A stretch of DNA of 43,653 bases. Origin: a virus. The stretch spans positions 1 through 43,653 of the IMG/VR virus record IMGVR_UViG_3300037010_000218, one strand, 5' to 3'. Below the pieces are notes generated by a model, which searched no databases, was not told where the DNA came from, and worked only from the letters and a program-made list of their open reading frames with translations. The position numbers were made by a program, and so were the translations under genes. Position 1 is the stretch's first letter. Each line of letters starts with the position of its first letter. Of this stretch, positions 39,315-43,653 are shown in pieces.

Positions 39315-41879
39315 ATGGCTACAATGCAAATAACTAAAGTCGGTTATGAGCAAATAACCGATGCACTACAAAGTGGTTATACTTTAAAGATTACTAAAGT
39401 TAAATTTGGTACTGGATCAGATTATGTTCCAACAGCAGGAGATGTTGAACTTCATGGTCATATTCTATATGAAGGCCCAATTAGTAATGTGGATGTAGTA
39501 AATGATGATATAATTGATTTTCTTTGTATTTGCCCTGAGAACTTAGGTGTAGACACAGTCACTATTGGTGAAGTTGGATTATATATAGAAAATACTGATG
39601 GAACCGATACTCTATTTGCATTAGCTTGTTATCCTTATCCTTTCAGTAAAGCACCAAATATGCGGTATAAAACACACTGCTTAGTTTTGAATCCATATAT
39701 AAGCAATGCAGTAGATTTAACTTTAACTTGGACTATGAGTTTACCACGAGTTAATTATTATGGAGATTTACCTAATCCGGAAAGAACTGGAGATAATGCT
39801 TATATAGTAAACCACGGATTTACAGATAGTGGTGTTTTAAAACCTTCTTTAGTTACACGATACGCAATGTCTGATACAGGCCCACTAGCGTGGGGGCTCT
39901 TAAATGGAGATTTATATTATGATGGCTATGTTACTCCAGTTGAAGGGGATCCAGCCAGTTTTAAATTAGCTGGTTTACCATTGTCTAACTTTCCTGCCAT
40001 AAATATTAAATTTGCTTTTGTTTATGTTTGTGAAGGTACAGGAAGAACTCAGTGTAGAGCATTATCTTATAATGCATCACTAGATTGCTTTACTACTTTG
40101 TATGAAGACTTTTCCTTAACTGTTAAGGGATCTGGAACTCCTTCCTATGAAGGAGCTTGTAATACAGGTAACACTGCAGGTACTGTGTTGCATATAACTA
40201 ATCTAGATTCAAGCTCAAGAGTATTGATTTGGACAGCGGTAAGGATGGAAGCTACTGGTCTTGTTTTTAGAGGTCGTTGGGATGCAGCAGCAGGATATCC
40301 ATCTAGTCCTATTCCAGGATCATACTGGGTAGTATCTGGTAATGGTATTATAAATGGAACCTGTTATCAAGTTGGAGACTGGATGGTATTTTCTGGTGAT
40401 GAACAGTGGGATAAGATTGATAACACTGAACTACCTTACTTACTATATCGTGGTGATTGGGATGCTTCTACCGGTCAAGCTCCACCGCCACAACCAATAC
40501 AATATTATTGGCAGAATATTCGTCAAGGACATTATTGGGTAATAAGTACTGCTGGAGTTATAGCAGGAGTATGGTTTGATGTTGATGATTGGATAGTATG
40601 GAATGGAACAAAGTGGCAAAAAGTAGATAATAAAGGTGGTCTAAAATTTAGAGGGTATCATGCTATAGTATCTGATAATCATGTGCCTACTGTTTTAACT
40701 GATGGTGACTATTGGATTGTGTCCCAAAAAGGAACTATTAATGGTATTCGTTATGATGTTAAAGATATCCTAGTATGGACAGGTTCAACCTTTATGCGGT
40801 TGATAAATCAAGAAGGCTTAGTTTATCAAGGTCTTTATGACCCAAGCATAACTGGTGAATATCCAGTGCCTTTCAAATCTGGTGATCTTTGGATTGTTAA
40901 AAAGAATGGTGAAGTAACTAATCAAGATGATCCTACAGTTAAAGATAACTTATATGTAGATGATTTTTTAGTAGCTATTCCAACTACTAGTACTACTTTT
41001 ACCTGTGATACTAATAGTAATAGTACCATTTTAAATACTACTGGTAATATGCGTTGGAAAGTAATTTCAGCAGGAGGATTAACCTATCGTGGTACTCATG
41101 ATGCATCTACTGGTATTATGCCAATTCCCCTGCATAAAGGAGACTATTGGGTTATTACTAATCCAGGTTATTTAAATGGTGTATATTATGAAACAAATGA
41201 TTGGATTACATTTAATGGATCTTCTTTTAATAAAGTTAGTAATAGAGAAGGTCTTAAATATCAAGGACTGTGGGAAATTGGTACCAACGGATCTGTACCT
41301 CCAACTCATCCAGTAGAAGGTGACTTTTGGATTGTTAGCTCTCCTGGATCTGTACAAGGCACTGGATATAGTATAGGTGATTGGTTAGTTTGGACAAATT
41401 CTGGATGGACTAACGTTGATAATAGACCTGGATTCTATTATAGAGGAGACTGGAATCCAACTTCAGGAACAAATCCAGTTGCATTAAAAGAAGGCGATTT
41501 GTATCGTATTAACGCTGCTGGTACATTCAATGGCGAGCATGTAGCTCCTGGAGACTTCATTGTTTGGACAACAGCAGGATGGCTCCTGATCTTAGGAACT
41601 CTTGACCGTATAGATATTCCTAGATATAACATAACCACTAATGATTACATGCTCCGTGAGTATGAATATGCAGATGCTTCTACTGGTAAAGTATATAACT
41701 CAGCTAAAAACCTTAAGATAGGATTTGCATTAGAGATTTTATTTAAAGATAGAACTAATCCAGTGTATGTACCATATCTTGAACAATTGAACGAATTAGA
41801 GTTTTGTGGTTGTACTTGTACTTGTACTTGCCAATGTACGGCACCTTGTAACTGTTGTAAAGGCGCAGGTCCAGTTTAA
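39315..41879 (+). CDS. Tail fibre/collar protein with seven tandem repeats and Cys-rich tail
   Basis: An 854-residue protein with a strong AGGAGG site. Residues 1-150 (QITKVGYEQITDALQSG, VKFGTGSDYVPT, IGEVGLYIENTDG) match the N-terminal tail-collar/fibre attachment domain. About 150-315 is a separate beta region. About 316-760 hold seven repeats of about 57-87 residues, consensus YRGxWDxxTGxxPxP...GDYWxVSxxGxxNGxxYxVGDWxVWxGxxWxKVDN. About 830-854 is a Cys cluster: C831, 833, 835, 837, 839, 841, 845, 847, 848. Probably the fibre's receptor-binding arm, with the cluster at the tip. Confidence 0.8.
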   Translation: MATMQITKVGYEQITDALQSGYTLKITKVKFGTGSDYVPTAGDVELHGHILYEGPISNVDVVNDDIIDFLCICPENLGVDTVTIGEVGLYIENTDGTDTLFALACYPYPFSKAPNMRYKTHCLVLNPYISNAVDLTLTWTMSLPRVNYYGDLPNPERTGDNAYIVNHGFTDSGVLKPSLVTRYAMSDTGPLAWGLLNGDLYYDGYVTPVEGDPASFKLAGLPLSNFPAINIKFAFVYVCEGTGRTQCRALSYNASLDCFTTLYEDFSLTVKGSGTPSYEGACNTGNTAGTVLHITNLDSSSRVLIWTAVRMEATGLVFRGRWDAAAGYPSSPIPGSYWVVSGNGIINGTCYQVGDWMVFSGDEQWDKIDNTELPYLLYRGDWDASTGQAPPPQPIQYYWQNIRQGHYWVISTAGVIAGVWFDVDDWIVWNGTKWQKVDNKGGLKFRGYHAIVSDNHVPTVLTDGDYWIVSQKGTINGIRYDVKDILVWTGSTFMRLINQEGLVYQGLYDPSITGEYPVPFKSGDLWIVKKNGEVTNQDDPTVKDNLYVDDFLVAIPTTSTTFTCDTNSNSTILNTTGNMRWKVISAGGLTYRGTHDASTGIMPIPLHKGDYWVITNPGYLNGVYYETNDWITFNGSSFNKVSNREGLKYQGLWEIGTNGSVPPTHPVEGDFWIVSSPGSVQGTGYSIGDWLVWTNSGWTNVDNRPGFYYRGDWNPTSGTNPVALKEGDLYRINAAGTFNGEHVAPGDFIVWTTAGWLLILGTLDRIDIPRYNITTNDYMLREYEYADASTGKVYNSAKNLKIGFALEILFKDRTNPVYVPYLEQLNELEFCGCTCTCTCQCTAPCNCCKGAGPV
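40260..41600 (+). repeat. Seven tandem protein repeats in the fibre gene
   Basis: Each unit opens with a Leu/Phe-x-Tyr/Phe-Arg/Gln-Gly-x-Trp/Tyr-Asp block and closes with Trp-x-x-Val-Asp-Asn. The fourth unit carries an insertion of about 25 residues. Units are diverged at DNA level, so expansion is not recent. Confidence 0.8.
41811..41830 (+). repeat. TGTACT hexanucleotide repeat (three copies)
   Basis: Three tandem copies of TGTACT encode the Cys-Thr-Cys-Thr part of the fibre's C-terminal cluster. A repeat of this size can gain or lose units by slippage without breaking the frame. Confidence 0.75.
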
Positions 41880-41896
41880 ATTAAAGTGAGGATAAT

Positions 41897-42634
41897 ATGT
41901 CAAGAGTATATTTTTGTGTTAAAAACAGTTATTCTTCTACCACTCCTAAACCTGCGAATATTACGTCTGTAGGAGATGTAACTATAACAGTATCTAATTC
42001 AAACATAATAATAAATCAACCCGATGTTCTTATAGACTCAGATAGAGATATACATTTAATAGTTGCTTCAGATTTTACATTTAATACTCCTGGTCTAGTT
42101 CAGACTTCGCATGTTTTTGGTTCAAAGGATTATTTTGATAAAGTACAGGTTTATTATTATAATAATACCTATTTCTATTATTTTGAAAGTGTAGAACATT
42201 ACTGTGCCGTATATGAGCGTCACTTTTCTACAGTTTATTTTAGACATGATCCTACTAAAATATTCTGTGAAGTAACATCTAATGCGATAGCTATTCAAGG
42301 AGCAGGTAAATTTGTTTTTCTAATCAGAGGTCTTTTTGTTTCAGAAAATGTAGTTACCTTGAAAATGCAAGATGAAGAAAAAACTGAAATACCAATATCT
42401 TTAATATCAGATAGTAATACACAAACTACGTTAAACTCTATAAATACTTCTTTCAATACGTTAGAAAATGGTACTATAGTAGATTCCTTTATTCAAAGTC
42501 GTGGATTCTTTTTAGAGCTAGACCCCGATGTTTTAAAAGGTGAAGGTTATCTAATAATAGAGAATGAATTACCTACAAGTTTTGCAATAACCGGTGTATC
42601 TAAGACTAGAAGTAAAATGATGTTCTTTATTTAA
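41897..42634 (+). CDS. Unknown protein between fibre and radical SAM genes
   Basis: A 245-residue protein, binding site GTGAGGAT. It is beta-rich in the first 160 residues (VTITVSNSNIIINQPDVLID), rich in Tyr and Phe (VQVYYYNNTYFYYFESV), and ends in a helical/polar segment. Cysteines are few and scattered, unlike the fibre tail. Position makes it a candidate fibre chaperone, accessory tail protein, or partner/substrate of the radical SAM enzyme. No family is recognised. Confidence 0.55.
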   Translation: MSRVYFCVKNSYSSTTPKPANITSVGDVTITVSNSNIIINQPDVLIDSDRDIHLIVASDFTFNTPGLVQTSHVFGSKDYFDKVQVYYYNNTYFYYFESVEHYCAVYERHFSTVYFRHDPTKIFCEVTSNAIAIQGAGKFVFLIRGLFVSENVVTLKMQDEEKTEIPISLISDSNTQTTLNSINTSFNTLENGTIVDSFIQSRGFFLELDPDVLKGEGYLIIENELPTSFAITGVSKTRSKMMFFI

Positions 42635-42668
42635 AATAATAACTGATTACTGGTAAAGGAAAAATAAA

Positions 42669-43653
42669 ATGATAACTAAACATGATTTAGAAGATGATAT
42701 TTTAACCTTTTCTAAAGATAGGTCTTTTAGGTATTTTAAAACAAAAGGCGGATTATTAGTAAAGAGCTTTCTTAATACAAATAGATACTATATAGAAAGT
42801 GCTGATGATGATTTACCTATTGCCTCTGTTTGTTTTGGAGAAGAAATATTTACTAATGATGAATTAGATCAACTATATGATATTATAAATCAAGATAAAA
42901 AACAGTTACGCCAAGATATATTTAGTTTAGGAATATTCAATTCTACCTGTAATGTTAGTTGTGAATATTGTACTAATGGCGATAGAACTAAAATGCTCCA
43001 GAAGCTACCAAGTATAGAACAACTACAAGAGGTCTTTAATACTTATAACATCAAATATGTAAGTGTAGCTGGAGGAGAACCATTAGTAGAATGGCCCCAA
43101 CTAAAAAATATTCTGACATTTTTAGATGAACAACCTGGTATAAAAACAATGGAAATCTTATCAAATGGAAGATTACTTAAGCCTGAGATACTTGAGTTTA
43201 TATCTAGTTTAACACGAGACGTTAAGTTATTTTTAACTGTTACTACAAAAGAAGACTCAAAAGATCACATGAATATACAAGAGCTTTATGAGTTATATCC
43301 GAAGTTGGTAGGACACCCTGTTGAAATAAATATTGTTATAGACCACTATAAATTTGATGTAGATAGATTTTTATCTTTAATTGTAGAAATGGTTAAAAAA
43401 GGAAATTTTGGAGTAACCTTAAATGCAATACGCAGAGAAGACGCAACAGAAGAAGGACTATTGCAATTAATAAATAATGTAAAAGCAATGATCCGAAGTC
43501 CTCATATTCGTGATTTGTCTTGTCCAGAAGACGATAATCCAACAACACCTTTTTATTATGCAACCGGAAGTTGTAGTAGTGGGATGATTTGTGCTTCATC
43601 TAAAGGTTATTCCTTTTGTTTGGCCTCTATGCCACAATATATAGAACAAACTG
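42669..43653 (+). CDS. Radical SAM enzyme, SPASM-like (3' partial)
   Basis: The frame opens at ATG 42669 with AAAGGA at 42655-42660 and runs to the window end without a stop (328 codons). An N-terminal 90-residue region precedes the radical SAM core: CNVSCEYC (C94, C98, C101; CX3CX2C binds a 4Fe-4S cluster), then VAGGEPL at 134-140 (SAM binding), then a further TIM-barrel-like part. At the visible end C302, C308 and C317 (SCSSGMIC, YSFC) resemble the start of a SPASM/twitch auxiliary-cluster domain, as in enzymes that modify peptides or proteins. It is not QueE-like, given the long N-terminus and C-terminal cysteines. Substrate is unknown. The neighbouring Cys-rich fibre suggests a protein target (inference). 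Confidence 0.85.
   Translation, partial: MITKHDLEDDILTFSKDRSFRYFKTKGGLLVKSFLNTNRYYIESADDDLPIASVCFGEEIFTNDELDQLYDIINQDKKQLRQDIFSLGIFNSTCNVSCEYCTNGDRTKMLQKLPSIEQLQEVFNTYNIKYVSVAGGEPLVEWPQLKNILTFLDEQPGIKTMEILSNGRLLKPEILEFISSLTRDVKLFLTVTTKEDSKDHMNIQELYELYPKLVGHPVEINIVIDHYKFDVDRFLSLIVEMVKKGNFGVTLNAIRREDATEEGLLQLINNVKAMIRSPHIRDLSCPEDDNPTTPFYYATGSCSSGMICASSKGYSFCLASMPQYIEQT

Follow-up and report, generated by a model that had tools for sequence, protein, structure and literature searches.

Among the closest described relatives of the enzymes considered here are radical S-adenosylmethionine (SAM) maturases that form thioethers in peptides. In the sections of a review devoted to them (PMC8172795), CteB is described as making Cys-Thr thioethers and PapB Cys-Asp thioethers, and the known substrate spacings are CX3D and CX4T. 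Radical SAM genes have also been reported from phages. In the portions of these papers that deal with such genes, Timms (2010) counted 11 and 12 radical SAM proteins in the Campylobacter phages CP220 and CPt10, described such numbers as "highly unusual" and proposed that the phages gain a metabolic advantage from them (PMC2853527), and Carvalho (2012) suggested activase or DNA-related roles for the radical SAM genes of Campylobacter phages (PMC3322345). The word "cysteine" is absent from the main texts of both papers. The stretch of DNA analysed here, IMG/VR virus record IMGVR_UViG_3300037010_000218 (43,653 bases; the window), encodes a tail fibre with a cysteine-rich C-terminal tail and, close behind it, the start of a cassette of radical SAM genes. 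Judging from sequence, it is probable that this cassette modifies the fibre tail, most likely by way of several thioether bonds.

The fibre C-terminus contains nine Cys within 18 residues. Cys accounts for 1.03% of residues across the 33 open reading frames (ORFs) of the window, and the second-densest 18-residue stretch among the window proteins holds four. The probability of at least nine Cys in 18 residues is 6e-14, and 8e-10 such stretches would be expected by chance over the 33 ORFs, so that the cluster noticed by a sequence-only reading of the window is confirmed. That reading had also placed an ORF of no recognised family and then a radical SAM ORF behind the fibre; these ORFs are indeed consecutive and on the same strand. 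The radical SAM assignment was borne out by a match of the first enzyme, r1, to Pfam PF04055 (40.6 bits, cut-off 29.5) and by its CX3CX2C and GGEP motifs. The right end of the window falls inside the r1 gene. The rest comes from three longer records (146.8, 170.1 and 81.6 kb) of a nearly identical phage, which differ from the window at 0-2 of the 10,985 bases in common: r1 is followed by three more radical SAM genes, r2, r3 and r4 (372, 406 and 422 aa), which overlap or are separated by gaps of a few bases, and after r4 by the gene for a 1191-aa Ig-like protein. The single radical SAM gene of the sequence-only reading is therefore present, truncated, and the first of four. All four enzymes exceed the PF04055 cut-off, and r3 and r4 are paralogues with 35% identity.

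The pairing of tail and cassette is well supported and was found from either end. Starting from the tail, IMG/VR was searched with a DNA pattern encoding CxCTCTCTC, which gave at least 119 stretches. Among the matches listed, these were mostly simple repeats, usually in short frames and with no radical SAM motif at the locus; the exceptions besides the window phage were L104, L035 and L107, where radical SAM genes adjoin the tail, L035 and L107 being one phage family. Four stop-to-stop frames of 101-133 aa (L009, L036, L093 and L117), in which the pattern is close to the end and whose loci lack a radical SAM motif, were treated by eye as chance, as were many shorter pattern-bearing frames, most of them in simple repeats. 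A second pattern, CGCTCTC, gave 91 stretches, all of which were analysed. It occurred 30 residues or fewer from the end of ORFs of at least 300 aa in four phages, namely the window phage, J363 (L104/L142), C118 (L239) and F35 (L240), and radical SAM genes lie within approximately 1 kb in 4/4. A 136-aa stop-to-stop frame in L222/L223, ending in CGCTCTCTC plus 15 residues, was counted neither way; there is no radical SAM motif at these loci, and the L222 record has three radical SAM matches with no Cys tail in the 20 kb around them. The whole records of L226 and L210, in which the pattern lies far from the ORF end, gave no radical SAM match.

Five tail lineages were recognised, comprising these four phages and an Omnitrophota phage/prophage family, and radical SAM genes are found within approximately 1 kb of the tail in all of them. 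The window tail aligns with the tails of the other four carriers (551, 814, 759 and 191 aa), whose bodies are mostly unrelated. After removal of the tails, window-F35 (E 0.025) and C118-J363 (8e-4) were the only pairs of carriers to match at E 1; with the tails on, all pairs align at the tail, which is taken as resemblance only because of its low complexity. In both the 363-kb contig J363 and the 35-kb fragment F35 the gene order is fibre, 205-257 aa, approximately 100 aa, r1, r2, r3, r4. Their enzymes are orthologous in order, with 31, 36, 31 and 40% identity from r1 to r4, and their first small proteins are related (28%), while their fibres gave no match by standard blastp.

The Omnitrophota carrier, from a reading of the ORFs, is a protein of approximately 190 aa encoded downstream of a large J-like tail protein, and occurs in phages as well as in a Ca. 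Velamenicoccus archaeovorus prophage. A Cys-tailed protein lies directly upstream in 10/10 close relatives of the Omnitrophota enzyme, two of these being the query contigs. The length of its (TC)n tail varies, and the residues are kept while the codons drift: summed over pairs of nine distinct tails, 473 codon differences are synonymous and 36 are not, counts that come from related sequences and are not independent events. Six distant bacterial and archaeal relatives of this enzyme had no Cys-tailed long protein in the DNA examined, and one of them (L144) had an ordinary short Cys-rich peptide. The Cys-tailed protein and radical SAM genes at L143 (NZ_CP019384.1 1903361-1916653) are in the Ca. 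Velamenicoccus archaeovorus chromosome, which points to Omnitrophota as hosts of related phages.

In the other direction, a profile of r4-type enzymes was used. The best 80 of 232 viral relatives, which include the query families (J363, F35 and Omnitrophota), formed 44 clusters at 70% identity. A dense Cys protein, defined as a same-strand ORF of at least 80 aa with at least nine Cys in 40 residues, was found in 32/44 clusters (30/41 without the query families, F35 itself being just under the threshold), against 2/44 on the opposite strand and 0/20 control regions of 13 kb each, drawn from 20 of the same phages at a distance from any radical SAM match. Since the phages that supplied the controls had been chosen as positives, their focal count of 20/20 is no test, and 32/44 is the rate to be used. 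With ORFs of at least 60 aa and nine, eight or seven Cys per 40 residues, 31, 36 and 36 of the 44 clusters matched, compared with 1, 3 and 6 of the 20 controls; opposite-strand matches numbered 2, 6 and 10 of 44 (one member per cluster). For the looser rule (36/44 versus 3/20) Fisher's test gave 5e-7, and the control matches appeared aperiodic by eye. To build the clusters, a single radical SAM ORF was picked automatically at each locus; the pick failed for L315 and L330, and one phage may have been split in two (L285/L287). L325 dropped out of the 60-aa counts through a filter and is positive under the 80-aa rule. How often the enzyme and a Cys-ended fibre co-occur across phages was the check proposed by the sequence-only reading, and the pairing passed it in both directions. 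The finding is real and larger than the window alone shows.

Among the 30 clusters with a scored pair, the radical SAM gene overlaps the Cys-repeat gene or lies within 50 bp of it in 20. Compared outside their Cys-rich parts, the carriers form 17 groups by blastp at 1e-3, a grouping in which distant kinship may be missed because the sequences compared are short (60 residues upwards). The Cys residues most often recur at spacings of 2, 3 or 4, or in mixed units (CTCNCNY and CPCNCNF, for example). Ten carriers were scanned against protein families: five match tail or tail-fibre PHROGs (three of these match other families more strongly), one matches a virion structural family weakly, two match only families of unknown function, and two match nothing. 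The SDERLK-like ends of the (CTCNCNY)n proteins were considered as a peptidase S74 chaperone, an idea that was dropped when the two tested gave no Pfam match. Four tandem (CTCNCNY)n proteins occur at L304:8687-11251, and the phage record concerned has seven radical SAM matches; the 207-kb phage record of L320 (G025) has 16. At L279:7067-8617 the Cys-repeat carrier has RCC1-type repeats, and its frame starts 14 bases before the end of the radical SAM gene.

A relative of the window phage lacks both elements. In L129, a related 295-kb record, a fibre segment is 57% identical to the window fibre, yet there is no Cys tail, and the record, which may be incomplete, has one radical SAM match only, in a 233-aa frame elsewhere. 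Tail and cluster are therefore absent together. A 72-aa ORF ending in RSCCGGGASR (L003:18539-18757) was considered as a peptide substrate and is an unlikely target, because a similar RSCC-ending ORF occurs in L129 without the radical SAM cluster. The latter is a 100-aa ORF ending in RSCCGNTKVI (L129:15972-16274), and such small ORFs are independent of the cluster.

Comparison with enzyme families indicated which chemistry the cassettes resemble. For one enzyme in each of four tail lineages out of five, the nearest relatives are ranthipeptide maturases, which form thioethers; the scores lie under the family cut-offs. The best NCBIfam match of the Omnitrophota enzyme (1e-61), J363_r4 (2e-36), F35_r4 (6e-38) and C118_r2 (3e-16) is the PapB ranthipeptide maturase. 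In bits, PapB NF047865 gave 208.6, 125.9, 131.0 and 59.5 for the enzymes of the other lineages, and 35.3 and 31.2 for window r3 and r4 (cut-off 340). The SCIFF maturase family of CteB, TIGR03974, reached 128.3 bits at best (cut-off 425). CteB is the closest solved protein of both the Omnitrophota enzyme and the r4 profile, and the QhpD family, TIGR03906, matched the Omnitrophota, J363_r4 and F35_r4 enzymes at 1e-39 to 2e-12, far under its cut-off. C118_r2 passes the SPASM model TIGR04085 (36.1 versus 27). The SPASM motif was searched as C-terminal CX2CX4-5CX2-3C plus further Cys for auxiliary clusters. The sequence-only reading had called the C-terminal Cys of the first enzyme SPASM-like: r1 itself has a looser pattern, and the strict spacing is present in r3 and in 8/11 enzymes of other lineages. 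Cys 302, 344, 347, 356, 365 and 382 of r1 fall at invariant or nearly invariant alignment columns. A structure model of r1 (mean predicted local distance difference test score, pLDDT, 58.8) is good only in the core, which matches radical SAM folds, and its top Foldseek match is CteB 5wgg with a template modeling (TM) score of 0.30. The r4 model was weak (mean pLDDT 52) and was not used. The second enzyme, r2, matches the MiaB/RimO family TIGR00089 at 149.2 bits over most of its length (cut-off 251) and UPF0004 at 22.0 bits (cut-off 27), and has no TRAM match in Pfam; by eye, its Cys presumably occupy the places expected for both MiaB/RimO clusters.

These results suggest that the four adjacent radical SAM enzymes are probably dedicated fibre maturases, acting after translation on the Cys-rich C-terminal tail. 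The enzymes would bind the tail in the anoxic cell, and the 5'-deoxyadenosyl radical would remove a hydrogen from a residue near a Cys. A C-S bond would then form, with an auxiliary cluster probably holding the Cys, the arrangement reported for CteB. The thioethers would join Cys sulfurs to carbons of neighbouring side chains, such as Thr in CTCTC, in the fashion of ranthipeptide and sactipeptide maturases, and the MiaB/RimO-like r2 possibly adds a methylthio group. A floppy Cys tail could in this way become a rigid, non-reducible tip on a presumably trimeric fibre, and this stiff tip would serve in host contact. That the fibre tail is the substrate of the enzymes is very probable; that the bond formed is a thioether is about evenly balanced. 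The sequence-only reading, enzymatic modification of the fibre tip, is supported; the tail, the cassette, their recurrence and their joint absence from a relative are observed, and we infer the modification and its chemistry.

Several results weigh against this proposal. The adjacent Cys and Thr of the tail are closer together than the CX3D and CX4T spacings given for known substrates in the review sections cited above, and no leader peptide is apparent. None of the peptide-maturase families passes its curated cut-off for the enzymes scored. The likeness of window r1, r3 and r4 to peptide maturases lies mostly in the radical SAM core, and the MoaA and viperin families match these enzymes about equally well. 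The strict SPASM spacing is absent from window r1 and r4, and the r1 fold match is low, with viperins and other maturases close behind CteB. The enzyme N-termini gave no Pfam match to a RiPP recognition element (RRE, PqqD-like; RiPP, ribosomally synthesized and post-translationally modified peptide), and the models are too weak there. At least 7/44 enzyme clusters have no dense Cys protein in the DNA examined, and the make-up of the cassette varies between lineages. In addition, the controls were taken from anywhere in the same phages and not from tail modules, so that they are also compatible with tail genes being generally Cys-rich in these phages.

Of the alternatives, an improbable one that fares best is a metal-linked tip, also named by the sequence-only reading, in which the tail binds Zn or an iron-sulfur cluster and the enzymes help to build that cluster or act elsewhere. 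Known phage spikes contain bound metal, the alternating and CxxC Cys resemble metal-binding clusters, and several repeats in other phages are CxxC. Binding alone, however, needs no radical SAM enzyme, yet such enzymes are close to the tail in five lineages and adjoin or overlap the repeat gene in most scored clusters. The best family matches of the r4-type enzymes are thioether maturases, and the varied Cys spacings do not suggest a single metal site. Marginally less probable still is that the substrate is the same and the chemistry is another: methylthiolation, C-methylation, epimerisation, C-C cross-links or conversion of Cys to formylglycine. The MiaB/RimO likeness of window r2 is consistent with this, as are the epimerase YydG among the matches of r1, and a weak B12-binding domain (26.8 versus 32.1 bits) and P-methyltransferase likeness in the second Omnitrophota enzyme. 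The r4-type enzymes, on the other hand, match thioether formers over their full length, and chemistry at sulfur is favoured because Cys is the residue common to the tails and repeats. The least likely account, that the enzymes act on some other substrate (host surface, nucleotide, lipid or small peptide) and sit by the Cys tail incidentally, can appeal to the many large phages with radical SAM genes (21 records selected for such genes have 2-16 matches each), to the metabolic and DNA-related proposals in the portions of PMC2853527 and PMC3322345 cited above and to the enzyme clusters without a Cys repeat, and is opposed by the recurrence on 17 carrier groups, the empty controls, the co-absence in L129 and the finding that in approximately 28 kb around the window-phage cassette no ORF besides the fibre and the enzymes has at least five Cys in 25 residues.

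The right part of the window is a tail module, with baseplate proteins, a baseplate wedge, a 722-aa tail protein and then the fibre (Table 1). The fibre has PHROG tail fiber matches, with baseplate wedge genes upstream. Its N-terminus scores 22.6 bits against the tail-collar fibre family PF12571, just under the cut-off of 23, and the F35 fibre scores 154.3 bits. By eye, the window fibre contains several repeats of an approximately 60-aa module (GDYWVVS..NGxxYxVGDWIVW), one of which has a weak DUF2793 likeness. Family searches with the 245-aa ORF gave no convincing match, and its protein was rejected as a conserved accessory, having no similarity to the proteins at the same position in J363 and F35.

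Table 1. Positions of the features described in the text, in window coordinates unless a record is named
Feature	Position	Strand	Remarks
Tail fibre gene	39315..41879	+	854 aa; collar-fibre-like N-terminus, Cys-rich C-terminus; proposed substrate
Nine-Cys tail CGCTCTCTCQCTAPCNCC	41805..41858	+	Fibre residues 831-848; proposed modification site
ORF of no recognised family, 245 aa	41897..42634	+	Sits between fibre and enzymes
First radical SAM enzyme, r1	42669..43653	+	Truncated by window end; 454 aa in L003:10001-11365
r2 (MiaB/RimO-like), r3, r4, 1191-aa Ig-like protein	L003:11343-18518		Beyond window
Long CxxC-repeat proteins	L388:14375-15812 (CP21_165/166), L005:22836-23207 (CP220 gp032), L389:7107-7532 (CP220 gp166)		

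Cultured Campylobacter phages were also compared. When an enzyme encoded near (CTCNCNY)n proteins (328 aa) was used as query, CP220 gp023 and CP21_151 matched it along its full length with 37% identity; CP220 and CP21 encode CxxC-repeat proteins approximately 7 kb from these respective enzymes. The CxxC pattern gave 38 and 115 matches in CP220 and CP21, compared with 4 and 44 for a reversed-pattern control; neither phage has a CxCxCxC stretch. One (CTCNCNY)n protein searched in cultured phages, with the BLAST low-complexity filter on, had no match. A second CxxC-repeat protein of CP220, gp166, is encoded 0.8 kb away from gp163, a different radical SAM gene. Full-text literature searches, outside which most subscription papers and all bioRxiv preprints lay, gave among the hits listed no title or abstract opening tying phage radical SAM enzymes to Cys-rich fibres.

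It is an even call whether a wide class of phages covalently stiffens or arms its fibre tips by radical-SAM thioethers in Cys-repeat tails, with a portable tail and cassette placed on many unrelated virion proteins, which would also explain the 11-12 radical SAM genes of phages such as CP220. If so, viruses would equip the structures by which they attach with post-translational cross-links made by radical enzymes. Virion maturation would thereby have a new level, and the phage radical SAM genes termed highly unusual in 2010 (in the part of PMC2853527 cited above) would gain a function. Peptide stapling would gain naturally matched enzymes and substrates covering several Cys spacings, and host recognition of uncultured phages, including those of Omnitrophota, would become testable.

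Among known systems, the Campylobacter phages CP220, CPt10, CP21 and IBB_35 have radical SAM genes, as does the window phage, and CP220 and CP21 also have CxxC-repeat proteins; unlike in the window phage, the CP220 and CP21 enzyme and repeat genes are some distance apart, and the published readings are metabolic or DNA-related. MiaB/RimO resembles window r2 over most of its length, whereas r2 scores under the cut-off, has 372 aa and no TRAM match, and lies within a virion module. QhpD, the quinohemoprotein amine dehydrogenase maturase, makes thioethers in a large protein according to the review sections cited (PMC8172795), and unlike the phage cassettes it is a non-virus system. PapB and CteB/SCIFF (PDB 5wgg) share with the cassettes C-terminal Cys clusters and an adjoining Cys-rich substrate (a proposed one in the cassettes), and their profiles match the J363_r4, F35_r4, C118_r2 and Omnitrophota enzymes over nearly the full length. 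The differences are that the C-terminus of a virion protein (an 854-aa fibre in the window phage) is the proposed target, in place of the short precursor with leader and core expected of a RiPP, that there are up to four enzymes per cassette, that all scores are under the curated cut-offs, and that the window enzymes match mainly in the core. The pairing would belong with radical SAM peptide maturation, as a variant and not a plain member, since every maturase score falls short of its cut-off and a protein of the virion is the presumed substrate.

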